A stretch of 64,000 bases of DNA, from positions 116,152 to 180,151 of the forward strand of contig NW_008705580.1 of NCBI RefSeq assembly GCF_000186865.1, written 5' to 3'. The notes beneath the pieces were generated by a model. The model saw only the letters and a program-made list of their open reading frames with translations, made no database searches and had not been told where the DNA came from. Made by a program: the position numbers and the translations under genes. Position 1 is the first letter of the stretch. Every line of letters begins with the position of its first letter. This DNA comes from Aureococcus anophagefferens (Eukaryota; Sar; Pelagophyceae; Pelagomonadales; Pelagomonadaceae). This document shows, one piece after another, positions 11,201-49,900 of this stretch.

Positions 11201-14200
11201 CGGCCGCGCCGACGCTCGCGCCCGTCGCGCGCGAGCCGCCGCCCCTCGAGCTCTTCGAGGAGGGCGCGCCGAGTGCCGCGCCGACGCTCGCGCCGACGCT
11301 CTGCGCCGACCGGCCGCCCGAGGACCCGCCGGGCCTCGCGGCCGTCTCGTTCGACGCGACGGGCGCGTCGATCGTCGCGACCCGCGCGGAACCCAAAACT
11401 TCAACCCGACTTGAGGGAGGACGACTCGTCCGAATGACCGCGATTTTTACCGAGCGAGAGAGTTCCGAAGTGTGGTCGGGAGACCCCGGCTCACTCGTCG
11501 ATGTCCGCGCAGGTCGCGACGTTCGGAGGCGCGACGGACCGCGCGGGCCTCGCGGCCGCGTTCGCCTGCGGCGACGTCCTCGTCGTCGACGGCCTCGGCG
11601 AGGGCGCGACGTGCTACTTCGAGGACGCGTATACGCTGCGCGTCGTGCCCGGCGCGGCGAGCGCCGCGGCGCCCGGCGGCCGCGCGTGGCTCCGGCCGGA
11701 GCCGCGGCCGCGCGGCGTCCGCGCGTTCCCCGGGCCGGCCTGCTGGGCCGCGGCGGCGGGCGGCGAGGCGACCGCCGTCGTCGTCGCGGCGCCGCGGGAC
11801 GCCGTCGAGCCCGCCGTCGCGCTCGCGGCGCCCGCGGCCGTCGCCGCGTGCGGCGCCGTCGCCGTCGACATCCTCGCGTCGACGGGCGACGGCGGCCGGC
11901 CCTGGGCCGACGTCGTCTGGACCGTCCCCGCGGGCGCGGTCCTGGCCGACGGGGCGCGGGGCGCGCCGTCGGCGACGCTCGCCGACGTCTCCGCCTTCGC
12001 GGGCGGCGAGCTCGCGGTGAGCGTCGAAGCGACGAACTTCCTCGGCGGCGCCGACGCCGCGTCCGCGACGATCGCCGTGCGCGCCGCGGCCGTGCCCGAC
12101 GTCGTCGTGCCCGGCGACTTCTCCGCGGAGCGCCGCGGCGACGTCGTCGAGCTCGTCGCCGAGGCCGTGGCGAGCGCCTGCCCCGGCGAGGCGCCGGACT
12201 CCGCGCGCCTCGTCTACGCCTGGGCGTCGACGGCCGGCGGCGAGCAGCTCTCGGAGCCGAACAAGTTCCGCCTGCCGGCGCACGCGACGGCCGCGGCCTT
12301 CGTCGACGTCGAGGTCACGGTCACGGACCGCCTCGGCCGCGAGAACGCCGCGTCCGCGCGCGTGACCTACGCGCCGAGCCCGCTCGAGGCGGCCATCGCC
12401 GGCGCGGACCGCCGGTCCGTCGCCGTCGGCGCGGTCGCGGAGCTCGACGGCGCCGGGAGCCGCGACCCCGACGTCGCCGCGGGCGCGCCGGCGGCCCTGG
12501 CCTACGCGTGGTCCTGCGTCGACCCCGCGGGCGGCAGCTGCGGCGCCGCGTCGACGGCGACCTTCGCCTTCACGCCGGCCGCGGCGGGCGACCACGTCGT
12601 GACGCTCGCGGTGTCCGGTGGCGGCCGCGTCGCCGAGGCGACGGCCGAGCTCGACGCCGCCGTCGTCGTCGACCCGCGGGGCGTGCCGGACGTCGGCGTC
12701 GTCACGGCCTTTGAGCGGGCGACGGCGTCGGGCCTCTGCAAGTTCCAGGCGGACGTCGGGGGCGACTACGTCGACGAGGGCATCAGCTACGTCTGGCGGG
12801 TCGTCGAGGGCGCGCTCGAGGGCTCGCTCGCGTCCGTCGCGGCGTCGCCCGCGAGCGGCGACGTCTTCGCCTACCGGCTCGTGTCGCTGGACGTGCCCTG
12901 CGACGCGCTCACGGCCGCGGGCGGCCCCTACGGCATGGAGCTCTCGGCCAAGTACGCGGACGGCGACGAGGAGGCCCGGGCCGTCGTGAGGTACGCGCCC
13001 GCGAGCCCGCCCAAGGCCGGCGAGCTGCGCGTCGACCCGCCCCGGGGCGTCGAGGCGACGGACCTCTTCCAGCTGAGCCTGCCCGACGCGGCGTCGTTCG
13101 TGCCGGATCGGCCCAAGCTCGAGTACGCGTTCTTCGAATCCGACGAGGCCTGCGAGTCCGAGGCCTGCGAGTTCGCGATCGTGCAGCGGGGGCCGTCGTC
13201 GCGGCCCGGCCCCGTGACCCTGAGCGCGGGCCTCGCCGCGATGGCCGGCGAGGCCGCGCGGAAGCGGGTCGTGGCCTACGTCTGGGACGCGGACGGCACG
13301 CGCGCGCGCGCCGAGGCCTGGGTCGACGTCGTCCCGCTCGCGGACCTCGGGGCCGTCGAGGAGGCCGCGGCGGAGGCCATCGAGGAGGCGCTGGAGACCG
13401 ACGACGTCGACGAGCTCGTCAACGCCATCCACCAGACGGCGACGATGCTCCGGCGCCTCGCCGCGGTCGACGCCGCGACGTCGGCGCCGAGCCGCGCGCC
13501 GACGACGCTCGCGCCGACGACGCCCGCGCCGTCCGTGACGCCGGGCGCGCCGACGCCCGCGCCCGCGACGCCGCCGCCGACGACGCGGTCGCCGACGACG
13601 CGCGAGCCGTCGCGCGCGCCGACGGGCGCGGCCGCGCGCGCCGAGGCCGAGGCCGCGGCGGCCGCGGCGTTGGAGATCAAGGTCGAGGTCGTCGCGGAGC
13701 TCATCGACGCCTTCGAGGCCGTCGTCGAGCTCCAGGCCGACACGGTCGACGAGCAGGAGACGATCAACACGCGCGCGATGATCGCCGACGCCGTCACGGC
13801 CGACGTCGAGGCCCTCGAGGCCCAGGCGCCGGAGGAGCAGGACGCGCTCGCGGCGACGGTCGCCGACGTCGTGAGCTCGCTGCGGGACGTGCCCGTGGCG
13901 GCGGACGCGGCGGCGAGCTTCCTCAAGACGCTCGGGCGCCTCGACGGCCTCGGGCTCTTCGCGGGGAGCGAGAAGATTGCGACGCCGGCCTACGGCGACC
14001 GCGCGGCGGCCCCCGCGGCGGCGGCGCGGCGGCTCGAGGACGCGCCGGCGACGTTCGCGTCGCTCCTCGACGACGTCGCGGCGTCGCTCCTCGTCGAGGC
14101 GACGCCGGGCGCTGACGCCACCGACATCGACGACGGCGCGGGCCTGCGGCTCGTCGCGACGCGGCTGCTCGCGTCGACGACGGGCGCGTCCGCGTCGGGC

Positions 14201-17200
14201 GCGAAGACCTTCAAGAGCGTCAACTTCTACCGGCGCGTCGGGCCCGACGCCAAGGTCACGACGGGCAGCGACGACGCCGACGTGTCCGTCGTCCGCTACG
14301 CGCGCGACCCGCACCCGTCGGCCGCGACGCCGGTCCTGTCGGAGGCGCGGCGCGTCGGCGTCGGCAGCGGCGCGGCCGCGACGTTCAAGCTCTCGCTGCC
14401 GACGACGGCCGGCGGCAACGCGACGCTCGGCGACCTGCCGCCGGCCTCGGATGCGACGATCTTCCTTGTTTGTGGTGAAACAACTTCGGCGACGTACTGC
14501 GAGGGCGCCGTCGCCGAGGCGGACGTCGCCGCGGACGTCTGCGCGGGCTGGAACGCGTCGACGCGCGTCGCCGTCGCGCTCTCCTGCGCCTACGCGGCCG
14601 CCGTGCGCTGCGAGGTCTTCGACGAGGACGGCGGGGACTGGGTCGACGCGGACGGCTGCGCCGTCGACGAGGCGTCGTCGGACTCGGAGCAGACGACGTG
14701 CGCGTGCGCCGCGGCGCCGGGCGCGCCGCCGCGCGACTACGCGGCGATGTCGTCCGCGGACGCCTACGCGGCCTACGCGGCGACGTCCTTCAACGACCCC
14801 CTGTCGACGAGCCTCCTCACGCAGAGCTGGGTCGTCTTCTCCTTCATGGCGTCGTGCGCGGCCGTCTGGCTCAGGGCAGGAAAAGGGTGCGAAATTCCCA
14901 ACTTCAAAGGCTCCTATCTCGGCCGTTTTCCACTCGTTTCGGCTGATTTTTGGACGAGCGATCATCTCTTGGAACGGTCTCGAAGCGTGGATGCTTTTTT
15001 TGGAACGCGCGGGCGCGGAACACTCACGTTGAAGCGAACTTGAATCTCTCTTTTCCTGCCCAGGTCTGGCTCGCGTTCGCCGCCGTCGGCCACGCGCTCG
15101 ACCGGCGCTTCGAGAAGCGCGAGGCCGCGCGCGAGGCCGCGGCGTCGCGCGCGGCGGCGACCAAGGCGCGGCGGCCGTCGTCGGCGCGCCAGCGCACGCG
15201 GCTCCACCAGCTCGAGAAGTCGCTCGCGAAGCAGAAGCTCAAGGCGCAGCTCACGCCGGCGTCGTCCGCGCGCGACCTGAAGGCGCACGCGCGGTCCGTG
15301 CACCGCGCGGTGCTCCGCGCGTCGCTGCCGTCCGTCGTCACGAAGCACCGCCTCGTGCGGCGCACGCTGCGCAACCCGGACGAGGCGGAGGCCAAGTCCT
15401 TCAAGGAGCTGCGCCTCGTGCTCTGGACGGTCTACTACAACCACTCGTGGTTCTCCATCGCGTCCGTCTACTCGCGGGACCACCCGCGGTGGCGGCGCTG
15501 CCTCCTCGCCTTCTTCGAGACCATGATCATCGCGGTCTGCGAGGCCGTCACGGCCTGGGTGTCCTACCCCGTGGGGCTCTGCAAGGTCGCGGACGACGCG
15601 GCGAGCTGCGAGAACATCCGGTCGTCGACGTCGTTCGGCACGGACAACAACTGCCGCTGGGACGTGTCCACGGAGCCCGAGTGCGTCTTCGACCCGCCGC
15701 GGGGCTCTGGCGAGATCTTCTTCATGCGCCTCCAGATGGCCGTCGTCTCCGTGGCCATCACGCTGCCGCTCCTGAAATTCGCGAACTGGATCTTCGACTC
15801 CTACGTCTTCGCGCCCGTGGTCACCGCGTCCGAGCTCGCCGCGCGGCGGCGCCGCGGCTCAAACGCGGGCGGCTACCCGTCGGAATTCCTCGCCGGGCGC
15901 CAGCTGCTGGCGAACCTGGGCATGGACGAGGTGCCCGACCCGCGCTACAAGCGCGACGACCGGCTCACGCGGCTCCTCCAGCGGGCCTTCGGCGGGTCCG
16001 CGGCGGCCAAGGAGGTCAAGCGCGCGCGGACGGCGGAGCGCATCGCCCACGCCTTCGCGTCCCTCGCGCGCTGGCAGACCATGCGCCTCGTGCTGCGCCA
16101 GCGCCAGGAGATCCGCGACGCGATCGCGGACCTCGACGACGGCGTCTACGACGGCGCGGTCGCGCCGCCGCCGCGGCGCGGCGCGGCGCCGCCGCCGGCC
16201 GCGGCCGGGCCCGACGTCGTGGGGACCGTGGCCGCGGCGGGCGGCGCGACCTTCGACCGGCGCGCGCTCCTGCGGCGGACGGCGAACATGCGGAGCCTCC
16301 GGGACTTTCTGGACCGGCGCGCGGCGTCGCCGTACCGCAGCGCGCTCGTCGCGCTGCTGCGGCACCACGGCGCGTACTGGCACCTCGACCCGGACGCGTT
16401 CTTCTGGCAGCGGACCTTCGCGACGCGCGTGCACGCGGTGCTCGTGGACTCGATCACGGTCGCGAGCCGGTGGATCGACAGGATCCACGACGGCGACGCG
16501 GCGCACGCGAAGCGCCTGCTCGCGCTCTACCAGCTCAAGGTCGCCGAGGAGCTCCACGGCATCGAGCGCGACCTCTTCTACCGCCACTGCTCCCTCGAGG
16601 CCGTCAAGGACGCGGGCGCCGCGGGCGCGGACGCCGTGTCGCCCAACGCGCGGCGCGCCGCCGTGGGCGTCGTCTGCCTGGCGCTGGTCGGCATGGGCTA
16701 CTTCATGCTCTTCTTCGCGCGGGCCTACGACCGGGGCAGCATGCAGGAGAACTGGCTCTACGCGACGGTCATGACCATGTTCCTCATCATCTTCGTCTTC
16801 GAGAATCTGCGGTCGCTCATCCTGCTCATCTACCTGCCGGCGCTGCTCGTGCCCAAGCTGCGCCACATCCGCGACCCGCTCCACGTGCCCCTCGTGCCCT
16901 TCCGGCACGAGACGCCCGTGACGCCCGTGCAGCTCGTCGACGTCCGCGAGGCGCGCGCGGTGCTCAAGGCGTCCGCGGTGCCGCGGCGGCTCCACGCGCG
17001 CCTGGGGACCGTGCGCCGCGAGAGCGGCCTCTTCGTGTCCACGGACGACCCGACGGACGTGCCCCGGCCGGTGTTCTGGCGCGCCGCGGCGGACCGGTGG
17101 GCGCGGTTCCGGGACCGGCTCTTCGAGGACGACGACGAGCTCATCGTCGACGCGGACCACGACGACCGCGACGTCAACCGCGACTTCCGCCGGGGCCACG

Positions 17201-18232
17201 CGGCGGGCTGGAGCCTCGACAACGTGCGCGAGCGGCTCGGCTACGTGAACTGGGAGCGGCCGCGGCTCCACGCGGCCGCGCTCGTCTGCGGCGGCTTCGT
17301 CACGCGCTGCGTGGAAATCAAACAGTGGTTTGGGGGGTCCCCAGCAAACTTCAGAACTCTCTATCTCGGTCAAATCGAAGTCGATGCGGCTGATTTTTGG
17401 ACGAATCGATTGCTCTCGTCGAGCTCTCGAAGCACAGCAGAAAGACTCGCACCAAGACCGTCGCATACGCGCACATTGAAGTCGGGTTGAAGATTTGATT
17501 TCCACACAGGTCATGCGGCTCCACCAGGAGTTCCAGGAGCTCTTCCTCGAGGAGACGGCGAATTTGCTCACGATCATCGTCGCGTCCGTGTCCGGCGAGG
17601 TCTTCGACGTCTTCCGGCGCGGCCGCGGCTCCGCGACGGAGGCGCGGCGCCGCGGCGCGTCCGTCATGGTCTTCTCGTTCCTCGTCGTCTTCGCGCTCGT
17701 CGTCTACGTGGCCCGCGCGTGCGTCTACCCCGTGCTCCGGCGCTCCTGCCGGCGCCTCGCGCGCGCGCTGCGGCCCGCGGCCGCCGTCGAGGCCGCCGCG
17801 GGCGACGGCGAGAGCGACGACGACGACGACGGCGCCGCGGACGCCTACTTCCGCCGCGCGGACCGCGAGGACGAGGACCTCTTCTCCGACGACAGCGACG
17901 TCGACCTCGTGCCGCGGCGCGACGACTACGACTCCGACGACGACGACCTCGCGGAGCAGCTGAGCGCGCTCGAGACGAGCGCGTTCCAGCAGAACATCCA
18001 CGTCCGCTTCGACCGCGAGTCCTCGCTCGCGTCGCGGCCCGGCGACGGCGACGACGACGCCGGCGACGGCGCGGCGCCGGACGACGACGACGACGACGAC
18101 GCCCCGGCCGCGGACGTCGCGCCCGCCGCGTCGACCGCGCGCCGCGTCGGCTTCGTGGACCAGGTCGAGGCCGACGCGGCGCTCCGCGAGCGCCGCACGG
18201 CGAACGCGCGGCGCTTCGACCCCGAGACCTAG
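2272..18232 (+). CDS. Giant polycystin-1-like receptor (FG-GAP, Thr/Pro repeats, REJ, GPS, multi-TM)
   Basis: Five exons: 2272-2500, 2556-11373, 11513-14863, 15064-17298 and 17510-18232, about 5118 residues. It begins with a signal-peptide-like [24 protein letters not shown] repeats of the type D.DGDGDLDI and SxDGxxVAVGAP follow, in two blocks (about 2.55-4.85 kb and 6.8-8.45 kb), separated by cysteine-bearing modules and PTAAPTAAP linkers. After long Thr/Pro repeats come a REJ-like region (about 12.4-13.3 kb), a GPS-like cysteine motif (about 14.59-14.71 kb) and membrane spans resembling polycystin-1. These include [20 protein letters not shown] and a late [18 protein letters not shown]. The cytoplasmic tail is acidic. 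I infer a plasma-membrane adhesion or mechanosensory receptor. One base is missing near 10,791-10,801: the repeat loses one C and the frame moves by one. Without that base the C-terminal half is out of frame; it could be an assembly error or a real lesion. Confidence 0.72.
2501..2555 (+). other. 55-bp GC-AG intron in the polycystin-like gene
   Basis: Joining 2500 to 2556 produces [18 protein letters not shown], a perfect FG-GAP calcium-loop pattern, and connects the signal-peptide exon to the long exon in frame. The intron starts gcgcgcggcc and ends gatcgcag, so it uses a GC donor. No GT donor gives a sensible product. No direct repeat flanks it and it lacks the introner core. Confidence 0.65.
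9871..10378 (+). repeat. 132-bp tandem repeat, four copies, coding
   Basis: Near-identical units start at 9871, 10003, 10135 and 10267 (period 132 bp, 44 residues), encoding [23 protein letters not shown] Thr/Pro repeats in the polycystin-like protein. The period is a multiple of three, so copy-number changes keep the frame. The likely role is an extended, O-glycosylated extracellular stalk. Confidence 0.9.
10379..11228 (+). repeat. Short Thr/Pro-encoding repeats (TPAPSV / [11 protein letters not shown])
   Basis: Many units of about 24 bp (ccctcggtcactccgacgcc type) alternate with copies of a [10 protein letters not shown] segment. Comparing the two neighbouring copies of the PAPTTT segment shows accaccaccgcgcc at about 10,650 but accaccacgcgcc at about 10,791. 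The second copy lacks one C, and that is where the open frame changes. Confidence 0.85.
11374..11512 (+). mobile_element. Introner intron in the polycystin-like gene, copy 1 (139 bp)
   Basis: A perfect 8-bp direct repeat gtcgcgac stands at 11374-11381 and 11513-11520. The element (11382-11512) begins ccgcgcgga and ends so that its reverse complement reads ctgcgcgga (8 of 9 match). The core is recognisable: aacttcaacccgactt near the left end and gttccgaagtgtggtcgg near the right end. The middle is shorter than in other copies. The intron uses the GT of the upstream repeat and the AG of the element end, phase 0, and joins ASI to [12 protein letters not shown]. Frames before and after agree. Confidence 0.88.
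14864..15063 (+). mobile_element. Introner intron in the polycystin-like gene, copy 2 (200 bp)
   Basis: Direct repeat gtctggct at 14864-14871 and 15064-15071 (the next base also matches). The terminal inverted repeats are cagggcaggaaaag and, reverse-complemented from the other end, ctgggcaggaaaag (13 of 14). The core includes ggctgatttttggacgagcg. Phase 0: splicing joins SCAA to [12 protein letters not shown] inside a membrane span. Its orientation relative to the transcript is opposite to that of the copy at 11374. Frame arithmetic agrees with the downstream exon. Confidence 0.92.
17299..17509 (+). mobile_element. Introner intron in the polycystin-like gene, copy 3 (211 bp)
   Basis: Direct repeats gtcacgcg (17299-17306) and gtcatgcg (17510-17517), one mismatch. 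The inverted repeats are ctgcgtggaaatcaaa and ctgtgtggaaatcaaa (15 of 16). The core carries ggctgatttttggacgaatc and ttgaagtcgggttgaag. Phase 0: the product reads [14 protein letters not shown] donor 12 nt further in (gtggaaatc) would also keep the frame, so the exact 5' site needs transcript data. The direct repeats argue for 17299. Confidence 0.9.
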
Positions 18233-18461
18233 GGCGCGCGGAGAACGTGCCCCGCTCCGCGGACCTAAGGAAAACGTGTCCCGCGTGACCTAAGGGGCCC
18301 CCCATCCCCTAAAATCCGAGCGCCTAGGACTCGCTCCGCGGACCGAAGGGTCCCATTCCGAGAATCCGAGAACGTGCCCCGCGTGGCCCGAGGGCCCCCG
18401 GTACCTTAAATCCGAGCGCTTAGGACCCGCCGCGCGCCGGCCGCCGCGCGTCGCGCGGCCC
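18233..18461. other. Convergent intergenic region with short direct repeats
   Basis: This 229-bp spacer holds the 3' ends of the polycystin-like (+) and PDE6D-like (-) genes. It contains two copies of gaacgtgccccgc and two of aatccgagcgc followed by a taggac-like motif, plus repeated cctaag/ccgaag segments. No coding signal was seen. The repeats may be termination or polyadenylation sequence, but nothing proves this. Confidence 0.5.
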
Positions 18462-19307
<846 letters not shown>

Positions 19308-19364
19308 TCACAGTGCACCTTACGAAGGCCGTTGAGCGGCGCGCCAACCCCGTCCGGCCGCGGC

Positions 19365-21695
19365 CTAGACCCAGCTGTCCGAGCCGACGACGACGTAGTT
19401 GCCCTTGACGGACTTCTCGTCGATCTTCGCCTGGGCCTTGGCGCGCGCGACGGCCGACGAGCCCCACTTGAACTTCTGGAGGCCGTTGAAGGGCGAGTCG
19501 GGCTTCCGCTTGTACGTGAAGACGGTCCACGTGCCGCGCGTGTAGACGCGGTAGACCGGGCTCCCCTCGGCCGAGAAGTCCTGCATGTAGACGTCGAGGT
19601 CGCCCTTCCGCGCCGACGTCGGCATGCCCGCGGGCGACTGCTTCCCCTTGAGCTCCGCCTCGAACTCGGCGCTGAACTTGACCTCGCGGCCCAGGATGTA
19701 GCGCGACGGCCGCGTCGTGTCCGTCGCGCGCGGCTCCAGGGAGAGCACGTAGAGGCCCGTGTCGCCCAGCGCCTCGTCGTGGTGGACGCCGCCGGAGCCG
19801 AAGCGGTCGTACGCGAAGTCGTCGAGCTCGACGTCCTCGTGGTTCGCGAGGAGGTTCATCGCGTACTTCTCGGCGACGTTCCCGACGACCGTCTCCGCGA
19901 TGCGGTCGAAGCTCTTGAAGAAGAAGCGGTCCCAGGGCGGCGCGCCGCCGCGCGGGCCCTTGACCGCGAAGCACTTGCGCCGCGGCACGCACTTGGCCTC
20001 CTTGAGCATCTGCGCGTACCGGGCGTTCCCTATGTACACGCGGCGGCCGGCGCGGATCTCCTGGAGGCAGTAGTCGACGACGGCGCGCGCGATCGCGCGC
20101 GCGCGCTCCAGGATCTCGCCCGGCGGCACCTTCTGCGTCCCGGCGGAGGCGCGGATCTCCGCCTCGAGGTCCGCCAAGGCGCGCGCGGCGTAGTACCCCG
20201 CGCCGGTCTTGAGCCACGCGGCCTGGACGCGCGCCGTGAGGTCCGCGACGTCGTCCTCGTCCGCGTCCTCGTCGTCGAGGAGCACCGCGAGCTCATCCGC
20301 GAGCGCCTTGTGCGTCGCGGTGGCGGCGCGGCGCCAGCGCCGCTGCTGCGCCGCGGGCGTGTCCTCCTCCGCGGCCTGGACGCGCGCCGTGAGGTCCGCG
20401 ACGTCGTCCTCGTCCGCGTCCTCGTCGTCGAGGAGCACCGCGAGCTCATCCGCGAGCGCCTTGTGCGTCGCGGTGGCGGCGCGGCGCCAGCGCCGCTGCT
20501 GCGCCGCGGGCGTGTCCTCCTCCGCGGCCTGGACGCGCGCCGTGAGGTCCGCGACGTCGTCCTCGTCCGCGTCCTCGTCGTCGAGGAGCACCGCGAGCTC
20601 ATCCGCGAGCGCCTTGTGCGTCGCGGTGGCGGCGCGGCGCCAGCGCCGCTGCTGCGCCGCGGGCGTGTCCTCCTCCGCGGCCTGGACGCGCGCCGTGAGG
20701 TCCGCGACGTCGTCCTCGTCCGCGTCCTCGTCGTCGAGGAGCACCGCGAGCTCATCCGCGAGCGCCTTGTGCGTCGCGGTGGCGGCGCGGCGCCGTTCGC
20801 GTTCGCGTTGAGCCGCCGCCGGCCGCGCCGAGGGCTTCAGAAACTCCTCCAGCGCGGCGATGCCCTGGTCGTAGGACGCGACGTGCCAGGGGTCCGTGCG
20901 GTCGCCGATCATCTCGTCCCCCGCCATGATCTTCGTGCGCTCGTCCTTGAGGAGCTCGACGGCGCACTCGACCCGCCGCCGCTCGTCGCGCTGGTCCTGC
21001 CAGCGCTCGCGCTTGGCCATGAGCTCCTCCTGGCCGTTGATGGCCGTCTCCAACAGGAAGACGTGGTCCGGGTCCGCGTCGCCGCAGAGCTCGTCCTCGA
21101 GGTACTCCTCGAGCTCGAGGAGCGTGCGCGCCGTCCTCGCCTCCGTCCAGCGCCGCTTCTGCGCCGCGGGCGTGTCCTCCTCCGCGGCGACGGCCTGCTT
21201 CTCGAGCCGCGCGGCCTCGTCGCGCCGCTTCCACGGCGCCAAACTCGCGTCGGCGGCGACCGCGCACGCGTCCGCGCGGAGGTCGATGACTTTCTGGCGC
21301 TTGGCGTCGTCGCGGGTTTTCTGCTCCGCCGCGTGCGTCTTCTCCTTCGCGGCGGCCGCCTGCGCCACGAGGTCGTCGACCTTCTGCTTCTTCGTCGTCG
21401 GCCGGAGCGTGTCGTCGGCGCGCGCGGCCTCGAGCTTCTTGTGGAGGTTGTTGCTCAGCGAGTTCTGCTCTTCGCGCTTGATCTGCCGCTTGCCGTTGTC
21501 GGTCGCCGCGTAGTAGTCGTACCAGTCGTCGTAGAGCTTCTTGAGTTTCTTGTCGCGGTGCGGCCCGGGCGCCGCGTCGGAGTTCTTGAAATCGTCGTGT
21601 TCGTCCTTGAGCCGCTTGCACTCCGCGGCCTCTTCCGCGCGCTTCGCCACCTTCCGGTCCACTTTACGCTGCTCCGCCGCGCTACGCTGAGGCAT
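19365..21695 (-). CDS. Unrecognised coiled-coil protein with tandem 51-residue repeats
   Basis: Intronless, 776 residues. Residues 1-300 are highly charged and helical (Lys/Glu/Ala-rich coiled coil). They are followed by near-identical 51-residue repeats (about 301-490) with the pattern RRAATATHKALADELAVLLD, an acidic stretch, then ADLTARVQAAEEDTPAAQ. The C-terminal 290 residues look globular, with aromatic-rich segments such as PPWDRFFFKSFDRIAE and VYRVYTRGTWTVFTYKRK. I recognise no family. The C-terminal part could be an independent domain. It shares a divergent 130-bp intergenic region with the HELGH gene. Confidence 0.75.
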   Translation of the reverse strand: MPQRSAAEQRKVDRKVAKRAEEAAECKRLKDEHDDFKNSDAAPGPHRDKKLKKLYDDWYDYYAATDNGKRQIKREEQNSLSNNLHKKLEAARADDTLRPTTKKQKVDDLVAQAAAAKEKTHAAEQKTRDDAKRQKVIDLRADACAVAADASLAPWKRRDEAARLEKQAVAAEEDTPAAQKRRWTEARTARTLLELEEYLEDELCGDADPDHVFLLETAINGQEELMAKRERWQDQRDERRRVECAVELLKDERTKIMAGDEMIGDRTDPWHVASYDQGIAALEEFLKPSARPAAAQRERERRRAATATHKALADELAVLLDDEDADEDDVADLTARVQAAEEDTPAAQQRRWRRAATATHKALADELAVLLDDEDADEDDVADLTARVQAAEEDTPAAQQRRWRRAATATHKALADELAVLLDDEDADEDDVADLTARVQAAEEDTPAAQQRRWRRAATATHKALADELAVLLDDEDADEDDVADLTARVQAAWLKTGAGYYAARALADLEAEIRASAGTQKVPPGEILERARAIARAVVDYCLQEIRAGRRVYIGNARYAQMLKEAKCVPRRKCFAVKGPRGGAPPWDRFFFKSFDRIAETVVGNVAEKYAMNLLANHEDVELDDFAYDRFGSGGVHHDEALGDTGLYVLSLEPRATDTTRPSRYILGREVKFSAEFEAELKGKQSPAGMPTSARKGDLDVYMQDFSAEGSPVYRVYTRGTWTVFTYKRKPDSPFNGLQKFKWGSSAVARAKAQAKIDEKSVKGNYVVVGSDSWV
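20221..20793 (-). repeat. 153-bp tandem repeat, four units, coding
   Basis: Units start at 20221, 20374, 20527 and 20680; the last is partial. They are essentially identical at nucleotide level, including silent positions, which indicates recent duplication or gene conversion. Each encodes 51 residues with heptad-like spacing. The same EEDTPAAQ-RRW motif appears once more, isolated, upstream in the protein (complement of about 21,150-21,185), suggesting the array grew from that segment. Confidence 0.95.
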
Positions 21696-21798
21696 CAGAC
21701 AGCAAAAACCGACGAGCGAGCGCGCACCAAGTTGCGATTCAAATGAAATGCATGCTCACACGATGGCCTCAACTTGCCTTCACTTGCAGGCAGTTTGA

Positions 21799-21889
21799 GG
21801 TCGACGGGGCAGCCTCTCCCGGGACATGGCCCTGCTCCGGAGCCTGGCGGTCGACGGGGCAGCCTCTCCCATGCTCCGGAGCCTGGCGG
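21799..21889 (+). repeat. Imperfect tandem duplication over the start codon of the HELGH gene
   Basis: The 22-bp string ggtcgacggggcagcctctc plus cc occurs at 21799 and 21849. A tgctccggagcctggcgg segment follows each. The duplication creates two in-frame ATGs (21826 and 21871), so the N-terminus has a MALLRSLAV / MLRSLAD doublet. Confidence 0.85.
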
Positions 21890-22860: not shown

Positions 22861-23021
22861 GCGACTTGTGCCGGAGAATTCAAGTTGGCTCTTGCGAGGC
22901 CCACTAGACTCACTGAGCTAGAGGGAATTTTACCCCGGCCGAAGCATTTTCATAAATCGTAGCCGAGTCGTAGGACCCTACACGTCAAAGCCGCCGCCGC
23001 CGCCGTCGTCAACGCAACACC

Positions 23022-23459: not shown

Positions 23460-23568
23460 GCGGACCGCGAAATGAGACAAGCAGCCCTGGCCGCGGCTCT
23501 CCCTACGCCCCTCCTCGCCGTTCTCCCTCCCGTCGGTTCTTCCCTGCGCCGCGGCAGTAAGACAAGCC

Positions 23569-25237: not shown

Positions 25238-28085
25238 TTAGCCGACGTCGTCGTGGGACGTGTCGCGGTGCTGCTGCGTGTAGTGCATCTCGGGCTGGTG
25301 GAGGACGTGGCCCGTGCCCCGGTCCGGGACGTAGTTCGGGTCGTTGAGGATGGCGAGCTTGGCCTTGGCGCGCTCCTTCTCGAGGAGCTTCCGGTTGTAC
25401 TCGACCATGTTGTGCTCGCAGATGACGTCGAGGAGGTGCTCGTCGAGCCCCCGGTGGTGGCCGCGCTGGTTCGCCCGGTGGACGTGGCGCCGGATGACGG
25501 GGGGCAGCCGGCGCTCCTTCTTGCCGCCGACGCCGCGCGGCGGCCCCGAGAGCGTGCCGTGGCTCCGCGTCGACGACGCGGACGCGGACGAGGCCGCGGA
25601 GCCGTAGGACCCGATGGACGGCGCCAGGGAGCCGACGGAGGCGGCGACGGAGCCGACGTCGTCGTCGGCCGGCGCGCGCCGCGCGCGCCGCGCGGCCCGC
25701 CGCGCGGCGTCCGCGTCCCGCTCCGCGGCCTTCTTCGCGTCCCGCTTCTCGTCGAGGAGGCCGACGCCCCGCGCCCTCGCCGCCGCGCGCATGTCCCGCA
25801 GGGCCCGGTCGAGGTCGCGCTTCGCGGCGTCGACGGCCGCGCCGTCGCCGTCGCGCCACCGCGCCGTGAGCACCATCTCGCGCCGCTTCTCCTGCGCGTC
25901 CTCGTCGTCCTCGTCGCTGTCCCACCACTCCGACGACTCGTCGCCGTCGTTCTTCTCCGCGGGCTCGCCCTCGCCGTCGAGGTCGTCGGCCATCTGGACC
26001 ATGTCGCGCGCGCCGAGGTTGCCCGTCGCGAGCATCGTCGCCATCGACGCGCGCCGGTTCGTGTCGTTGTCGATCTGCGCCTGGACGTCGACCTCCTCGT
26101 GGTTCGCGCGCGCGGCGGCCGCCGCCGGGTCCTGGATGGCCGAGATCACGGAGATGATCTCGTCCTCCGTCGGGTAGCCCATGTTCGCGCCCGCGTACTT
26201 GTTCGCGCCCTTCGACGTCGCGTGGCCGCGCTGGAGCAGCTCGAGGAACGCGACCTTGTCGAGGCTCACGATCGTCGAGTCGACGAGGGCCGCGACCGTC
26301 GCGGCGCGCGTCGTGTTCTCCAAGATGCCCTTCTCCCCGAAGTAGGACCCGGAGTCGAGCTCGAGGAGGCGCACGTTGACGGTCTCCGTGACCTTCTTCG
26401 TGACCCAGGACCGCTTCCCGCTGGGCCAGCGGTTCGTCCGCTTCACGAAGACGTCCTTGGACACGACGCAGCGGCCGTCGAGGATGAAGTAGACGTTGTC
26501 CGGGAGGTCGCCCTGGCGCACGACGACGGTGCCGGCCTTGAAGTAGTTCCACTGGAGCATGTCGCAGAGCCGGTCGAGGCGGCTCCGGCTCCAGTGGCGG
26601 AAGAGCGGGATGCGCTTCATGCACTTGAAGGCCTTGCGGTGCTCCGACTTCTGGTAGTCCTTCATGATCTGGTCGTAGTCGGCCTTGTGCAACACCAAAA
26701 GCTCCGCCAGATCCGACGAGCAGACGATCGTCGCGTTCCGCGGCGGCGCGCCGGGCCCGAGCGACGCCTCGCCGAACGACCTGCGTGGAATTCAAATCTT
26801 CAACCCGACTTCAATTTGCGCATATGCGACAGTTTTGACGCAACATCTTCAGCCATGCTTCGAGAACTCGACGAGAGCAATCGATGCGTCCAAAAATCAG
26901 CCGAATCGACTTCGATTTGACAGAGAATTCTGAAGTTTGGTCAGGACCACCCAAACCAGTGGTTGAATTCCACACAGCGAACGACGAGCCCGCCTTGAGC
27001 GTCGCGAGCTTGCCCGGCGAGCTGTGCTTGAAGACCTCGGCCGTGCCCGATACTAGAATGAAGAACGTGAGGCCCCGCTCGCCCTCCTCGACGATCTTCT
27101 CGTCGCGGCTGCAGCTGTGGAACCGCGCCGCGCGCGACACCTGCGACACGCGCGCCTCGCCGATGCGCTGCGCCGTGGGCCAGACCTGCACGAGGAAGCG
27201 GTCGATGAGCTGGATGTGCTTGTCCGTGCGGATGATGGGCTGGGCCGTGAGCGCCTCCCGGAGCCGCTCCTCCTTAATAATTTGGTCGACGCGGCCGTAG
27301 TCGACGTGGCGCGAGATCCAACCGGGCAGCACGTCCCGCGCGTCGTAGGCCATGGTCACGGGCGCGTTGACCTCGGCGATGTCGAAGGGCACCGTGCCCT
27401 CGGTGGTGTGGAGCATGGCCTTCTTCATGTCGACGGACTCGTAGCGGTGGCTGAACGTCGTCGACTCGCGGCGCTTGCCGTCGCGCTGCGACCGGAGCGC
27501 CGGGTCCGCGAAGTCGCGCGTCGCGCGCAGGTCCTCGACGGGCGGCGACGGCGGCGGCGCGAAGGCGCCGCCGAGCTCGCGCACGGCGTCGCCCGCGCGG
27601 TCGGCCGCGTCGCCGCGCTCGAGGCGCCGCGCGTTCCGCGCGGCGGCGCTGTCGTCGACGAGGCGCCGGCTCCCGTCCGCGTCGCGGACGAGCTTCGTGC
27701 GCCGGCGCTCGGCGGCCTTGGTCTCGTCGACCTTGACGAGGAACCGCGCGCCGCCCGAGCCCCGCGCGATGGTCGTGCGCATCGCCGGCTTGCCCGTCGG
27801 CTCGGGGTTCGGGTCCCGGGCTTCGGGCGCGTCCTCGAACTCGAGGCCCTTGTTCACCTTCTCGAAGCGCGTCTCCCGGCGCCGGCTGTCGGGCTTCTCC
27901 ATGGGCACCATGGCGTTCTTGATGCGCACGGGGATGATGAGCGCGTTGGCCATGGCCGTGAAGCGCTGCTCCCGCACGTCCTTCTGCGAGTCCTGCTTGG
28001 CGAGGTGGCGCTTCATGCCGCCGGGGCTCCGGTCCATCTGCGGCCCGAGGTGGCGCTTCACGCCGCCGGGGCTCCGGTCCATCAT
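25238..28085 (-). CDS. Protein with two cyclic-nucleotide-binding domains, one introner
   Basis: Two exons (28085-26986 and 26780-25238), 880 residues. The N-terminus has a doubled MDRSPGG-KRHL motif. A first CNBD (about residues 300-405) reads FHSCSRDEKIVEEGERGLTF, then LATLKAGSSFGEASLG; the FGE lies exactly at the splice junction. A second CNBD (about 430-560) reads AGTVVVRQGDLPDNVYFILD, then LLELDSGSYFGEKGILENTT and RAATVAAL. The C-terminal 300 residues are charged and low-complexity. The pair of CNBDs resembles PKA regulatory subunits, but no inhibitor sequence (RRxS/A) was identified. The first domain lacks a canonical GE...R phosphate-binding arginine (PPRNATIV supplies an R near it). 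A cAMP/cGMP sensor or effector is likely. Confidence 0.85.
26781..26985 (-). mobile_element. Introner intron in the cyclic-nucleotide-binding gene (205 bp)
   Basis: On the transcript strand the upstream repeat gtcgttcg (26985-26978) and downstream copy gtcgttcg (26780-26773) are identical. The element (26977-26781) starts ctgtgtggaattcaa and its other end, reverse-complemented, reads ctgcgtggaattcaa (14 of 15). It holds the full core, including ggctgatttttggacgcatc. Phase 2. Splicing joins LKAGS to SFGEASLG, rebuilding the conserved CNBD motif. This is the cleanest copy in the window. Confidence 0.95.
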
Positions 28086-36151: not shown

Positions 36152-36439
36152 GGTGCCTGCGCAATTTCAGCTTCGCATCGTGCTACATCGTCGTTTGGGC
36201 TCGAGACATCATCACCGCCGGCGGCACCAAGGTCATCACCGCGGGCCCACCAAAGCTTGCATGCAATTGCAAGGTCTTGTGGAGATTTGGATCTTCTGTC
36301 CGGACAGAAACCGGTCTGCGATCTTGGCATTGAACAATCGTGAGGCCGGCGACAACCAGCGGTATCCGGTCGGGGTGCTCGGCGACACACCCCTGGCGAC
36401 GTCCAAAAGCTGCCTGTCTATCCCGCTTAATCCACCAGC

Positions 36440-38242: not shown

Positions 38243-38499
38243 CGGCGCCTCGCGCGCGCCGGCCTAACGACGTTTAATCACTCGTGCTGGGTGGTCGTGG
38301 GCGCTTTCCCTTGCTTGCCGACGCCGTCGTGGGTCAGCGCGCGTTCAGCGGTGGAGCTGTATTTCGTTCAAAATTGCCTCGGCGACGTCGCTGTTTCAGC
38401 GAGCGGGCGCCCGCGGGCTGGGTCATCATCTCGTTTCATACAAACAGTTTGTCGCGCGCCGCCAAGGCCGTGAATTCGCCGGGCCCGAGCGACGAAGAG

Positions 38500-40422: not shown

Positions 40423-40468
40423 CGCGTCCTAAAGGACACTCCGAGCCCCCCCTCGCGTGTCCTCAAGG

Positions 40469-41371: not shown

Positions 41372-41886
41372 GATCGGGCGGCGATCCCTAGGGCGTTCAC
41401 GAGTGCGGCGCTCGGGGTGGCGCCGACGCCGCCGGCGTGGACTCGTCGGTGGAGCGGCGGCGGCGGCGGCGATGACGACGCGTGCGCGCGGGGGGGGAGG
41501 CGTTCGCCGAGCTCGCTCTCGGTGCGGGGGCGATGTTCGAGCTCGGTGCCTTGAGAAATCCAATTTTGGTGGCGAGCGCTCGAGCGCCAGCAAGCGCACA
41601 GCCCCAAGCCGAGCCTGCCGTCACCTTCGGCGAGCGTCCGGTGCTGTGGCTCCGCGGCCGGCTCAGTGGCGAGGCGAAGCGAGCCACCTCACCATGGGAC
41701 TGGCAAGCGCAGCCGGCGAACGTCCTGGCGAGGCGTCCGCCGGCCGCGCCGGCCGCCGCGGTCCGGACGCGTCGCCGTGGCCGGTCCGACCCGCCCGCGA
41801 AGCACGACCTCGCCGCCCCAACGACCGAAGACGCGACGCGAGTCGAGATCTAGAGGGGCGTCGCCGAGCGCGGACGCCGCGCGCGC
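41372..41886. other. 515-bp region between palmitoyltransferase 5' end and CDC27 3' end
   Basis: Nothing convincing was found. An open frame on the plus strand (41482-41853) lacks recognisable features and is probably chance in GC-rich DNA. The part nearest 41,372 should hold the 5' leader and promoter of the minus-strand palmitoyltransferase gene. Confidence 0.45.
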
Positions 41887-44063: not shown

Positions 44064-44351
44064 GGTGTCTCCCCGGGGGCGTCCGCGGGGTCGTTCCCGA
44101 CCGCGTCCCGCTCGCGGTTGGCGCAGCTCCAGACGCTGGGGCCGCGGCTGAGACTGCTCGTCGACGGCAACAAGGTTCTCGATGCCATGCTGCCCCCCCG
44201 CTCGAGCCATCCCATCGTCGAAGAACAAGACCAACCTACGCTACGACGGCTAGCTGCCGGCCTAGCTGTCAGCTAGCTCGGCTCGTCTAGGTACCCCTCT
44301 AGCCCCCCTGGATAACACCCCCCCATCCCATCGTCGAGCCATCCATCGAGC

Positions 44352-44954
44352 ATGGCTGCCGGTCGGAGCTTCACGTTCATCCGGCACGGCGAGGCGGCCC
44401 ACAACCCGCTCATCACCGCCGGCGACAAGGCCGCGGGGCGCGCGATCCTCGACCCGAAGCTCACGGCCCTCGGCACCGAACAAGCGACGGCGCTCGGCGC
44501 CAAACTCACGGAGAGCAACCGTTCGTTCGACATCGTCGTCACGTCCCCGCTGTCGCGCGCGCTGCAGACGACGGCGTTGGCCTGCCCCGCCGAATGCGCC
44601 GCGCGGCGCGTCGTCGTCACGAGCCTCCACACGGAGAACGGCATCCCCGTCGAGGGCGATCCCGTGGCCGGCAACCCCTGCCAGCGCGGCGCGCCGCTCG
44701 CGGAGCTCAGGGCCGACTACCCGACCTTCGACTTCGCGGGCTGCGCCGACGAGGCCCAGTGGACGACGGACGGGCGGGGCGGCTCCTTCCACCCGCTCGG
44801 CGTCGCGGAGCGCCTCGAGCTCTTCCGGACGTTCCTCCACGGCCTGCCCGAGGACGCGGCCGTGCTCGTCGTCGGCCACTCGGGCTTCTGGAAGAAGTTC
44901 CTCGGCCAGGACCAGAAGATGGCCAACTGCGAACTCGTCGAGCGGGCGGTCTAA
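44352..44954 (+). CDS. Histidine phosphatase (phosphoglycerate mutase-like) family protein
   Basis: Intronless, 200 residues. The catalytic RHG motif is FIRHGEAAHN (residues 9-18). The proton-donor region includes SLHTENGIPVEGD, and the second His lies in VLVVGHSGFWKKFL (about 170-183). Branch-1 histidine phosphatases of this length act on small phospho-metabolites or on phosphoproteins; the substrate cannot be inferred. It lies head-to-head with CDC27 across 288 bp and tail-to-tail with the kinase gene (24 bp between stops). Confidence 0.88.
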   Translation: MAAGRSFTFIRHGEAAHNPLITAGDKAAGRAILDPKLTALGTEQATALGAKLTESNRSFDIVVTSPLSRALQTTALACPAECAARRVVVTSLHTENGIPVEGDPVAGNPCQRGAPLAELRADYPTFDFAGCADEAQWTTDGRGGSFHPLGVAERLELFRTFLHGLPEDAAVLVVGHSGFWKKFLGQDQKMANCELVERAV

Positions 44955-44978
44955 GGGCCGCGAAGCGTCCGGGGACTT

Positions 44979-46798
44979 TTAGAGGTCGCTCGCGTCGACG
45001 GCGCCCCTTTGGCGCGAGAAGGGGTTCCACCAGCGCGCCCGCGGCGACGCGGGCGCGTCGTCCGGCGGCGACTCGGCGACCTCGAGGACGTCGTCTTCGG
45101 ACGCGCGGTAGCCGAAGCCCGCGAAGAGGTCCGCGCGGCTCGCGCCCGGCGCGTCGTCGCCCGCGACGAAGAAGGACATGAGCCGCTGCGTCCGCGTGAA
45201 CTGGCTCGCGCGCTCGGCGATCTGCACGTGGAGCGTCGGCCGCGACAGGTCCGGCTCGTCGTCGCCGTCGCCGGGCGCGTCGGCGAGGGAGCCGCGCGGC
45301 GTCGCCTCGAGGTCCACCTGGACGACGTCCCCCGCGGCGTCCGTCGCGCCGCTCGTCTCGAGGATGGACCGCGCGCCCGGCGACGCCGGCGGCGGCGCGC
45401 GCCGCGCGTCGTCGTCGTCGTCGCTGTGGTCGCCGTCGTCGTCGACGGAGTGCGCGCCGCGCGCGAGCGGCGACGCGAGCTCGCGCCGCTCGAGCTTGCC
45501 GAAGTCGACGTCCGCGAAGAAGGCGTGCCGGCGGATCTTCTTCCACCGCGGCCGGTCCGCCGCCTGCTTCCGGAGCAGCGCCCCGACGAAGGCCGTCGCG
45601 ACGCCGTCGCCCTCGACGGCCGGCGCGTCAGCGCGGACGATGTTCGCGAAGAGGTCGCGCGGCGGCCTGCGCGCGCGTCGCGTCTTCCACCCGACGTCCA
45701 CGGGCGCGTCATCGAACGGTTCGGACCCGACGCTTCGAGGACTCGACGAGAGGAAACGACGCGTCCAAAAATCGGCCAAAACGACATTGATGTGACCGAG
45801 CTCGAGAGTTTCGCAGTGACCGGCCGTCGGAATCGACGCCGGCGGCGGCGTCCGCTTCGGGAACGGCCGCTCGAAGGGCGTGTGGCCGCAGCGCATCTCG
45901 AAGACGATGCAACCCAGGGCCCACCAGTCGACGCGCTCGTCGTAGGTCGTCGCGTCCTTGCGCAGGAACTCCGGCGCCATGTAGCTCAGCGTGCCGACCT
46001 GTGTGGAAATCAACCACTGGTTTGGGACGTCCCGACCAAACTTTGAAATTCTCTAGCTCGGTCAAATCGAAGTCGATTCGGCTGATCTTTGGACGAGTCG
46101 ATTGCTCTCGTCAAGTTATCGAAGCGCAGCTAAAGAGATCGTGTCAAATACGCTCACATTGAAGTCGGGTTGCATAGTTGATTTCCACGCGGCGTGCCGA
46201 CGAAGCTCCGCTTCCGCGCGCCGTCGGCCTGCGTGTCCAGCGCGACGGCGAGGCCGTAGTCGGCGATGGCGCAGTGGCCGCCGAGGTCGAGCAGCACGTT
46301 CGCCGGCTTCAGGTCGCGGTGGATGACCCCGAGCTGGTGCAGGTGCGCGAGGCCGAGCGCGAGCTCGCCGGCGGCGAACGTCGCGCCGGCCGCGGCGATC
46401 GCGCGGCCCGGCTCCGCGCGCAGGCGGTCCTCGAGGGACCCGCCCTGGTAGTAGTCCATGACCAGGAACAGCCGCGCGGGCGACTGGAACGCGTAGCGGA
46501 GCCGCGCGAGGCACGGATGCCGCGCGGACCGTAAAATCTCCTTCTCGACGCGCGCGCTCTCCGTGATGTTCCGCCGGATCATCTTCTCCTTGTCCATGAT
46601 CTTCATGGCGAAGGCCCGGCCCGCGTTCGGCGCGCTGCGCTTGCGCACCAGGAGGACGGCGCCGAAGCTGCCCTGCCCCAGCGTGCGCAGCGGCACGAAC
46701 TCGCTCACGTCGACGACCTGCGTGCTCATGGCCCGCGCGCGGCTCGGCAGCGGGCTCGGCTTCAGCGACTTGCGCCGCGCCGGCGCGGACGCGAACAT
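44979..46798 (-). CDS. AGC-like Ser/Thr protein kinase with DYG motif, two introners
   Basis: Three exons (46798-46202, 45998-45850 and 45666-44979), 477 residues. The glycine loop is GQGSFGAV (41-48), the ATP lysine AFAMKIMDKE (K66), and the catalytic loop HRDLKPANVLLD (160-171). The magnesium motif is DYGLA (180-184) in place of DFG. The activation segment is RSFVGTLSYMAPEF and the helix-F region VDWWALGCIVFEM. HTPFERPFPKRTPPRDLFAN reads through the second splice junction, and RPRWKKIRRHAFFADVDFGK resembles the AGC C-tail start. A hydrophobic-motif FxxF is not evident (RLMSFF is a candidate). The acidic tail is low-complexity. Start MFASAPARRK; MSTQVVDVSEF is an alternative. Confidence 0.88.
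45667..45849 (-). mobile_element. Introner intron in the kinase gene, eroded copy (183 bp, GC-AG)
   Basis: On the transcript strand the 8-bp repeat gccgccgc flanks it (45849-45842 and 45666-45659), both copies identical, so the donor is GC. The core is retained: actctcgagctcggtcacat and ggccgatttttggacgcg. The inverted repeats are eroded. Phase 2. Splicing yields FPKRTPPRDLFANIV. The intron is a multiple of three and open, so it is easily missed as coding. GC-rich sequence makes the repeat less decisive here. Confidence 0.75.
45999..46201 (-). mobile_element. Introner intron in the kinase gene, intact copy (203 bp)
   Basis: On the transcript strand the repeats gtcggcac (46201-46194) and gtcggcac (45998-45991) are identical. 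Inverted repeats: ccgcgtggaaatcaac after one extra g, against ctgtgtggaaatcaac from the other end (14 of 16). The core is complete, and its orientation is opposite to that of the eroded copy in the same gene. Phase 0. Splicing joins KRSF to VGTLSYMAPEF, the conserved activation segment. Confidence 0.95.
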
Positions 46799-46969
46799 GG
46801 CGACGGCGGCGGCGGCTGCCGGCGGCGGCGTCGGGGCCGACGAGCAGAGGTGGCTGCGAGAGGCTGCCCGGCAGGCCCGCCTCGACCAAGAAAGGCAACG
46901 CCAGCCGCACCTTTGAACCTGAACCTTGCGCCGGTGCTGCCCCGGTCGATCGATAAAAAAGACGGGGGC

Positions 46970-49900
46970 ATGCTCCTCCTGCTCTGCGTCGCCTTTGCCG
47001 GCCGGGCCGCCGGCGGCGAGGCGCCGCGCGCGCTGCGGCACCTCGAGCCGACGCTGCTGCCGACGTCTGCGCCGTCCCTGACGCCGTCGTCGTGCCCGAC
47101 GGCGGGGCCGACGGCGTCCCTGGCGCCGACGGTCGTCGCGCCGCCGCTGCCGACGGGCAACGGGACCGTCGCCGACTGGGCGTCGCTCCAGTACCTCATC
47201 GAGGCGGGCCTCGGCGCGTCGGGCGTCTTCGTCGCCGGAAACTACGCCATCAGTGACAAGATCACGGTCTACGCGGGCGACGAGGCGCGCGTGCGCGCCG
47301 TCGGCGACGGCGCCGCGGTCTTCGACGGGTCGGGCAGCGACAAGCGCGCGTTCCTCGTGTCCGGGTCCCTCGAGCTCGTGGGCCCGCTCGTCATCGAGAA
47401 CCTGCTTTTAGCCGTCGCCGGCGCGTGCGCCAAGGTCCAGAACGGCGGCGTGCTCACGGCGACGGACGTCGCGTTCCGCGGCAACGCCGGCTCCAACGGC
47501 GTCGCCGTCTACGCGACGGGCCAGGCCGCCGTCTTCCTCACGAGTTGCGCCTTCCTCCGCAACGTCGCGACGTCCCGGGGCGGCGCGATCTACGCGTCCG
47601 ACGCCTACGTGTCGCTCGTCGGTATAAACGCGACGCGGAACACGGGCGAGGGCGGCTTCCTCTACGCGACGTCGGCGTCGCTCGTCGAGCTGAGGTCGAG
47701 CCTCGTCGCCGAGAACGTGGCGCTGACGAACGGCGGCGGCTTCCTGCTCACGGACGCGTCGACGCTCGTCGCGTCCAACTCGACGTTCGCGCGCAACGTC
47801 GCGGACGAGTACGCGGGCGCCGTCGCCGCGGAGGCCGGCTCCATGGTCGCCCTGGACGACTGCGCCGTGACGGGCAGCACGGCGAACTTCGACGGCGGCG
47901 GCCTCCTCGGCGCCGAGTCCTATTTCCTGCTCACGCGGACGATTTTGTCGCGGAACGAGGCCGCGGGCAACGGCGGCGGCGCGGCCGCGGCCGCCGGCGG
48001 CGGCCTCGGTTTGCTCGACTGCGTCGTGGCCCACAACGGTGCGACGGAGGGCGGCGGCCTCTACGTCGACGCGAGCGTGCTCAGCGTCAACTCGACCAAC
48101 GTGACGCGCAACGCCGCGGACTACGGCGGCGGCGTCGGCGCCTGTGCCGATTCCAAATCTTCAACCCGACTTCAATGGGCGCGTAATCGAACGATTTGGA
48201 CCAGACTCTTTCGCTGTGCTTCGAGAACTCGACGAGAGCAATCGATCCGTCCAAAGATCAGCCGAATCGACGTCGACGTGACCGAGAATTCTCAAGTTTG
48301 GCGGGGACCCCCCAAACCAGCGGTTGGAATCCACGCAGGTCGGCGCGCTCGGCACGGGCCACCACATCTTCGACGCGGCCTGGGTCGAGCGCAACGTCGC
48401 CACCGACGGCGGCGGCGTCGCCATCGAGGACGGCAGCGCCTTCTTCACGGCCGGGTCGTCCGTGTCGCGCAACGAGGCCCTAAGTCGCGGCGGCGGCCTC
48501 TGCGTCGACTCCGCGTCCGTGGCCCTCGGGTCCGACTTCCGGGGCCTGGGCAACGTCGCCGACTCCCAGGGCGGCTTCGCGGCGCTCTGGAACGACGCGC
48601 CCGCCATCTACGGCGCGTCGAACGACCACGCGTCCGTCCTCGCGGGCAACGTCGCGTCCGAGGGCGGCGCCGTCGACGTCGTCACGTACGCGACGGGCGC
48701 GGCCGTGCGCAACATCGTCTTTTTACGCAACGAGGCCGAATCCGGCGTCGGCGCGGCCATCCACGTGTCTTTAGGAGCCGCCGTCGCCATCTCGAACTGC
48801 AAGTCGGGCGGCCACTACTCGAAGTCGTCCGGCGCGTCCATCTACCTCGCGTCGGGCGCGGAGGCGAAAGTTATTGATTTTGAGTCCGTCGGCGACCAGG
48901 CGCTGCTGCGGGGTATTATATATCTGGAGCACGACACGTCCTTCGTCGGCGAGCGGCTCACGGTGCGCAACGCGTCCGTCGTCACGGGCGTCATCTTCGC
49001 GACGGACGTGACCTACCTCTACCTCGGCGACTCCCACTTCGCCTACAACAGTGCCGAGGAGGGGTCCTGCGTCTACGCGGAGCTCTGCGAGGAGAAGTTC
49101 GTTTTAGCGAGGACGACGGTGGAGCGGAACGAGGGCTCGGCGATCTTCCTCGACGGGTCGCACGCGCACCTCGAGAACGTGACCATCCGCGACAACGTCG
49201 CGTCGCCCCACGGCGAGGACGTCGGCGCCGCGGGCCTCGCGACCGTGAAGTCGTCCATCTCCATGAAGGGGTCCACGATCGAGCGCAACGAGGCCGAGTA
49301 CGGCGGCGCGTTCGCGGTCACGGAGCAGTCGTCCGTCTTCTCCTACGGCGGCAACGCCATCACGGGCAACGCGGCCGTCGGCGGCCACGGCGGCGCCTTC
49401 CTCGTGTTGTCGTCGAGCGTCGTCGTGCTCCGCGAGGACGACGTCGTCGACTACAACACGGCGACGCTCGGCGGCGGCGTCGCCTACTGGGACTCGACGA
49501 CGGTGGACCGGGCGAATTTGGTGACGTTTGCGACCATCGGCGCACACAACGACGCGGGCTACGGGCCCGTGAACGCCACGGGCATCACCGCGGTGCGCGG
49601 CTACCACGACGGCGTCGAGGAGCGTTCCAACTTCGAGCTCAAGGACGATTTGGTCGTCGAGGCGCTGGACTACTTCGGCCAGGTGGCGGCCGTCGGCGCC
49701 ACGACCTTCGCCGTGGCGCTCTACGAGGGCGACGACGACACGTCGTTCAACGGCCTGAACTCGAAGTCGTTCACCGCGAACGGCCCCGCGATCGCGCGGT
49801 GGCGCAACTCGGAGTCGCCCGTCGTCGTCGGCTACGCGCCGAACCGCAACGCGACGCTCGTCGCCGTGCTGGACCCGGCGAACCTGCCGGAGGAGATGAC

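Follow-up and report, generated by a model that had tools for sequence, protein, structure and literature searches.

Introners with 8-bp target duplications in a 64-kb window of the Aureococcus anophagefferens genome, and the GT and GC donors they would take from their host genes

The window examined here, a stretch of 64,000 nucleotides from the pelagophyte Aureococcus anophagefferens, holds eight short intervals that are almost certainly introners, that is, short non-autonomous DNA transposons that create introns on insertion. A sequence-only reading had placed eight introns in it, and all are present, each no more than a few bases from the position it gave. Their alignment separates two families, A (the intervals at 11374, 17299, 26781, 45667, 45999 and 48134) and B (14864 and 1199); all interval coordinates include the donor-side repeat. 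Three family-A introners lie on the forward strand, each with GT-AG borders: 11374..11512, between repeats of gtcgcgac (8/8 identical; 11374-11381 and 11513-11520), 17299..17509, whose 203-bp element (17307-17509) is flanked by gtcacgcg and gtcatgcg (7/8), and 48134..48338, with its element at 48142-48338 and repeats of gtcggcgc (8/8). Three more lie on the reverse strand. The first, 26781..26985, has its element at 26781-26977, GT-AG borders on the sense strand and repeats of gtcgttcg (8/8; 26773-26780 and 26978-26985), and the other two share one kinase gene: 45667..45849, which is diverged and has GC-AG borders and repeats of gccgccgc (8/8; 45659-45666 and 45842-45849), and 45999..46201, with GT-AG borders and repeats of gtcggcac (8/8; 45991-45998 and 46194-46201). 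Both family-B introners are on the forward strand. One, 14864..15063, carries a 192-bp element (14872-15063), GT-AG borders and repeats of gtctggct (8/8); the other, 1199..1384, is a degraded copy in a RING-H2 gene, with GC-AG borders and the repeats gcgcccgc (1199-1206) and gtgcccgc (1385-1392; 7/8).

The direct repeats of 8 bp that had been described around every interval are identical in six of the eight and match at seven of eight positions at 1199 and 17299. In all eight the donor is formed by the first two bases of the upstream repeat and the acceptor is the element's last AG, as proposed. The donor is GT in six intervals and GC in two (1199 and 45667), a difference that the earlier reading did not spell out. 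Its claim of a core common to all eight stands for seven, but not for 11374, where an internal deletion has removed most of the core. Removal of an interval was said to leave exactly one copy of the repeat and frames that agree, and this held in the window and in the sample of 110 copies described below.

One could suppose that the intervals are plain insertions of miniature inverted-repeat transposable elements that stay in the mRNA and are translated as part of the protein. The intervals at 1199 and 45667 have lengths that are multiples of three and offer a stop-free frame if retained, and retention of 11374 or 48134 brings no stop within 240 bases on either side, but the lengths of these latter two are not multiples of three. 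This holds for six of the eight lengths, which argues against read-through. At 14864 the frame is open once the interval is removed, and retention introduces two stops. The spliced joins of 11374, 14864, 17299 and 48134 are each crossed by an open frame; an open frame alone is weak evidence in GC-rich DNA, and the statistics of the sample weigh more. Splicing at 26781 restores GSSFGEASL, a putative cyclic-nucleotide-binding-like motif, in an open frame. The window's polycystin-like exon gave no database match and no Pfam match.

Domain scores also bear on read-through, as retention disrupts both the RING and the kinase domain. At 1199, splicing joins MLP to CPHVYHEEC, and zf-RING_2 then scores 52.8 bits over profile positions 2-43, against 31.8 bits over positions 18-43 when the interval is retained; another RING model, zf-rbx1, slightly favours the retained form (36.1 bits, against 35.0 for the spliced). 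With the introns at 45999 and 45667 both removed, the kinase is continuous (Pkinase 181.8 bits, profile 4-263); with 45999 retained, translation stops within the domain (119.2 bits, profile 4-161). Of 7998 candidates scored in a database search with the spliced kinase, 89 match at E 1e-20 or better. The best of them, P0003, is named as an A. anophagefferens kinase; in the alignment its exons nearly coincide with those of the window, and it deviates in introner-derived residues, in two extra residues at 45667, and in a gap and shifted residues in its C-terminal third. This near-identity supports A. anophagefferens as the species. Splicing of 45999 yields RKRSFVGTLSYMAPE, which is contiguous in P0004 and P0007 and not in P0003 and P0006, and the join KRTPP/RDLF made by splicing 45667 is contiguous in P0004 and P0007 and not in P0003 and P0005. 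P0004 and P0007 are environmental and more distant relatives (74% and 58% to the query) that run straight through both junctions, which supports the GC donor at 45667 and the GT donor at 45999. Three public models of the gene tell a different story. P0003 translates pieces of the 45999 introner as well as adding the two residues at 45667; P0006, also from A. anophagefferens, departs from the spliced form around 45999 and is without the residues that precede 45667; and P0005 has the entire 45667 introner in translation, so that P0003 and P0005 both carry translated introner sequence, as read-through would have it. Because the two more distant relatives are without those residues, we read the junctions of P0003, P0005 and P0006 as probable errors of the gene models. 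The models also indicate that these introner copies exist in other A. anophagefferens sequences.

Beyond the window, the genome searched comprises 49.05 Mb in 86 contigs, among which the window is C20:116152-180151. Near-identical introns stand at many unrelated positions in it. The 15-bp end of family A, CTGYGTGGAAWYCAA, occurs exactly 1285 times (reversed-pattern control, 1), the 17-bp core GGCTGATTTTTGGACGA 2110 times (control, 0), and the two family-B ends 283 and 406 times (one control match for each). When the genome was searched with the 26781 element, all 40 matches that were scored, from 1659 candidates, had 91-100% identity, and the best was the element itself. The 14864 introner is 97% identical to other genomic copies. 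By BLAST, 1199 aligns with another B copy at 69% identity (1209-1390, E 1.6e-12), and 45667 has 77% identity to another A copy (E 1e-27).

We assembled 110 distinct copies (79 of A and 31 of B) from the window and from fetched loci, requiring at most four mismatches at each end and a duplicate that matches in at least six of eight positions. This filter removed one (L088) of the 20 fetched B copies; five window copies entered the sample (11374, 14864, 17299, 26781, which is L001, and 48134), and 1199, 45667 and 45999 were excluded by the filter. Consensus length is 203 bp for A and 192 bp for B, and the copies have a median identity to it of 92.6% (79 A copies) and 96.4% (31 B copies). The terminal inverted repeats are 15 bp long in A; in B they extend over 16 bp from base 3 on, base 2 being unlike between the ends. 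Four labelled window copies were set aside and the remaining 106, which still included L001, the window's own 26781, were compared with the window by BLAST. They recovered the eight intervals and five short, weak matches (21-39 bp; at 20093, 31454, 31609, 31764 and 39953; best E 2.2e-4), and nothing in the reversed window.

Independently of the duplicate filter, 82 pairs of A-type ends with a core between them had repeats identical at eight of eight positions in 59 cases, at seven in 13, at six in two and at fewer in eight; in a control with one side shifted, six of eight positions matched in 9 of 328 comparisons and seven in none of 328. Among 61 copies with perfect repeats, the ninth base is also identical in 19, which is near the level expected from base composition, so that the duplication is 8 bp. 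Such duplications, together with the inverted ends and insertion in both orientations, are unexpected from RNA reverse splicing. They make it extremely unlikely that these are ordinary spliceosomal introns that spread through reverse splicing or gene conversion, even though the intervals look intron-like and have sequence in common, as such an origin would predict. The anatomy that the sequence-only reading had sketched, with inverted ends, 8-bp duplications, an AG from the element and a GT or GC from the gene, held in the window and across the 110 copies. As a side observation, introners adjoin one another at about 0.35-1.8 kb in one stretch in L039 (C1:1808500-1816000) and L029.

To assign each copy to a coding strand, we used a codon model built on four window genes (2022 codons), applied to 300-bp flanks. 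Strand and frame were called on each flank apart, so that the join was not presupposed, and frames then agreed across the splice in 77 of 77 copies and across the retained element in 8 of 77; a version with joined flanks gave the same 77/77. Together with the domain scores and the interval lengths, this makes retention of the elements in mRNA very unlikely. On the coding strand, the donors of the 77 copies are GT in 36, GC in 40 and GA in one, and the acceptor is CAG in every copy (69/69 of A and 8/8 of B). In coding flanks the same dinucleotides have a background of 4.2% (GT), 16% (GC) and 6.8% (GA), and by simple arithmetic GT is enriched about 11-fold and GC about 3.2-fold. The GC donors do not seem to mark old or decaying copies, as identity to the consensus does not differ between 43 GT and 52 GC copies (p=0.62). 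Intron phases 0, 1 and 2 number 30, 13 and 34, with the GA copy in phase 0; for GT donors the counts are 18, 0 and 18, and for GC donors 11, 13 and 16. Both sets fit the codon positions at which the dinucleotide is available (p=0.33 for GT and p=0.63 for GC), in agreement with what is reportedly the published explanation of phase bias.

It is conceivable that GT or GC at the start of the duplicate reflects a target preference of the transposase, the element being pre-adapted to splice donors. All 63 A copies with perfect duplicates have GT or GC at one or other end, against a background of 36%, and no plainly untranscribed copy without GT or GC was seen in the sample. However, targeting through the symmetric ends of A should constrain both ends of the duplicate, and the constraint is confined to one: the coding-strand side bears GT or GC in 69 of 69 A copies, and the antisense side in 14 of 69, about background. 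The A copies lie in both orientations to the gene (38:31). Since the ends of A are symmetric, both orientations occur and only the coding-strand side is constrained, we favour selection for splicing, and consider targeting unlikely. The ends themselves behave likewise: base 2 of A is mutated at the donor-side end in 13 of 69 copies and at the acceptor-side end in none of 69 (p=1.3e-4), as would be expected if the acceptor were under purifying selection and the other end were free. In B, GT or GC is found on the side that matches the single AG end in 30 of 31 copies, which argues against targeting in company with the A result but taken alone would also fit a directional transposase.

The copies with their duplications and ends, the restoration of frames and domains upon removal, and the constraint on the coding side can be read directly from the DNA, and the following sequence of events would account for them. 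Insertion, probably by cut-and-paste mobilisation with a transposase acting in trans, would duplicate 8 bp of the gene. A GT or GC at the start of the coding-strand duplicate would become the 5' splice site, and the AG would be supplied by the element's outward-facing end; splicing in vivo would then take out the element with one copy of the duplicate and restore the message. Family A, with an AG at both ends, should work in either orientation, and family B, with an AG at one end, in one orientation. Copies without a usable coding-strand donor are almost absent from the sample, most simply, it would seem, through removal of unspliceable insertions by selection.

Several observations weigh against this account, to which the zf-rbx1 scores and the three public kinase models given above also belong. 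The sample is not random, consisting of the best matches to the 26781 and 14864 elements, the first-listed ends on C1 and their neighbours. Three of the sampled copies are neighbours of genes that served to train the codon model. A coding strand could be called clearly for 77 of the 91 copies whose flanks were long enough, with 14 unclear, and in 19 B copies the flanks were too short for a call; the 14 unclear copies (10 of A and 4 of B) also all have GT or GC at an end, as a target preference would predict. One coding-strand donor is GA, in L076, a family-B copy at 3832 on the reverse strand (GAAAAGCC upstream and GAGAAGCC downstream). Finally, the searches of the genome that were made found no mobilising transposase with matching ends.

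Family B appears to operate in one direction. Its left end begins with CAG and its right end, read outward, with CTG, and therefore only one orientation places an AG at the 3' end; the B copies with a clear coding strand are all in this orientation (8/8). With all 31 copies read in it, the duplicate starts with GC in 18, GT in 12 and GA in one. Pairing by exact ends gave 47 pairs, every one of them consisting of one CAG and one CTG end. This pairing set 67 of 100 listed CAG places (up to the last listed CTG place) against 100 listed CTG places, from genome totals of 283 and 406, and among these listed places 20 CAG and 53 CTG places were left over with no exact partner.

The consensus sequences of A and B have a core in common (local score 53; the highest of 500 shuffles reached 32), and a third, diverged relative of this core lies inside a P-like transposase gene on C25. 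In A, mean substitution per column is 2.6% in the core (columns 75-128), 14.8% in columns 16-38, 7.1% in columns 39-74 and 14.7% in columns 129-170. Overall, the rest of the interior varies more than the core (p=2e-6), although columns 171-188 equal the core in conservation (2.1%). In several A columns about half of the copies vary, a pattern that suggests subfamilies more than decay. We tentatively entertain the possibility that the core is a DNA-level module for mobilisation, kept while the acceptor-bearing ends were exchanged, and that B is a one-way descendant that lost one acceptor and is still mobile. Family A works in both orientations, which makes a role in mobilisation at the DNA level likelier than a directional RNA signal; simple common descent could also account for the core's conservation. 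A hairpin around the core was inspected by eye, and we do not claim that it is conserved.

With regard to the source of mobilisation, profiles for hAT and KDZ transposases (PF05699, PF14372 and PF18758) gave no match in the genome, but none in the control genomes either, so that absence is not shown by this result; the MULE profile PF10551 likewise gave no match in the genome, and matched in 4 of 14 control genomes. P-superfamily transposons also make 8-bp duplications, and genes resembling their transposases are found in three places in the genome (C25, C11 and C2). At the C11 gene, the parts of the flanks examined on both sides contain no introner ends, and the closest sequences differ from those of A at 4 of 15 positions and from those of B at 5 of 16. 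On C25, examined in part, the gene was considered as the source of the introners and appears instead to be a host for one, since an introner-like core sits between its N-terminal part and its C-terminal piece. Its frame (L100, C25:175500-182500, at about 2459-4380) matches PF21787 with E 3e-12 when TAG is read as glutamine; the first 394 codons contain seven in-frame TAG, no TAA or TGA, five CAG and one CAA, and the C-terminal piece lies past an AT-rich stretch that holds the introner-like core. The genes on C11 (L101-L104, C11:1391700-1397372, examined in part) and C2 (C2:3449025-3449876) are near contig ends, have open frames of 563 amino acids and match the C25 frame with equal score. A convergent second gene on C11 is distantly similar (22%, E 6e-11) to a gene beside the C25 copy. 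Two long end-to-end pairs on C1, of about 2 kb and 0.75 kb, were considered as an autonomous partner, and each proved to be two neighbouring ordinary introners. A viral vector was also considered: the one exact core match in the viral_contigs collection lies in an open frame of a phage-like contig with no introner around it and was put down to chance, and two longer end patterns had no match in this collection, which may omit records near the window's genome.

The introners of A. anophagefferens are reportedly the subject of work by Huff, Zilberman and Roy in 2016, and are said to draw one splice site from the element and the other from duplicated gene sequence, and to insert between nucleosomes. 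The sequence-only reading took the window's intervals to follow this published mechanism, and both the window and the tests on 110 copies agree with it at the level of sequence; both the kind of element and its mechanism were already known, very probably in this same species. An introner family in A. anophagefferens is documented in passages of three papers (PMC9860276, PMC7789003, PMC9481584). There the elements are described as about 210 bp long (PMC9481584), with direct repeats and with terminal inverted repeats of constant length (PMC7789003), and in length, repeats and inverted ends they are like the present ones. The relevant passage of PMC7789003 reports canonical splicing motifs for the elements of this species, whereas GC makes up 40 of the 77 donors here; introner families with up to 50.0% GC donors are reported in a passage of PMC9860276. 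As described in the latter source (Gozashti et al., 2022; PMC9860276), family 4 of an Aureococcus sp., in the same genus, has the 8-bp target duplication found here but supplies both splice sites itself and lengthens the message by 12 bp, whereas the present families supply one and do not lengthen it. The introners of Symbiodinium microadriaticum in that source (PMC9860276, Fig. 2B) have terminal inverted repeats, as here, but a duplication of 4 bp, unlike the 8 bp found here.

The present analysis contributes a tested account of 110 copies, with the near-even split of GT and GC donors, the constraint on the coding side and the one-way family B; we do not assert that the GC fraction or family B is absent from print. 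The kinase is one A. anophagefferens gene whose public models are unlike its spliced form, and such introns, one with GC-AG borders among them, appear to be mis-annotated here and may be so elsewhere. The enrichment of GC set beside that of GT is a rough yardstick of how far GC donors are tolerated. The symmetric ends of A with their constraint on the coding side only, together with a family that has a single acceptor, help to separate selection for splicing from insertion preference, and make these elements a clean and readable case of a transposon making introns.

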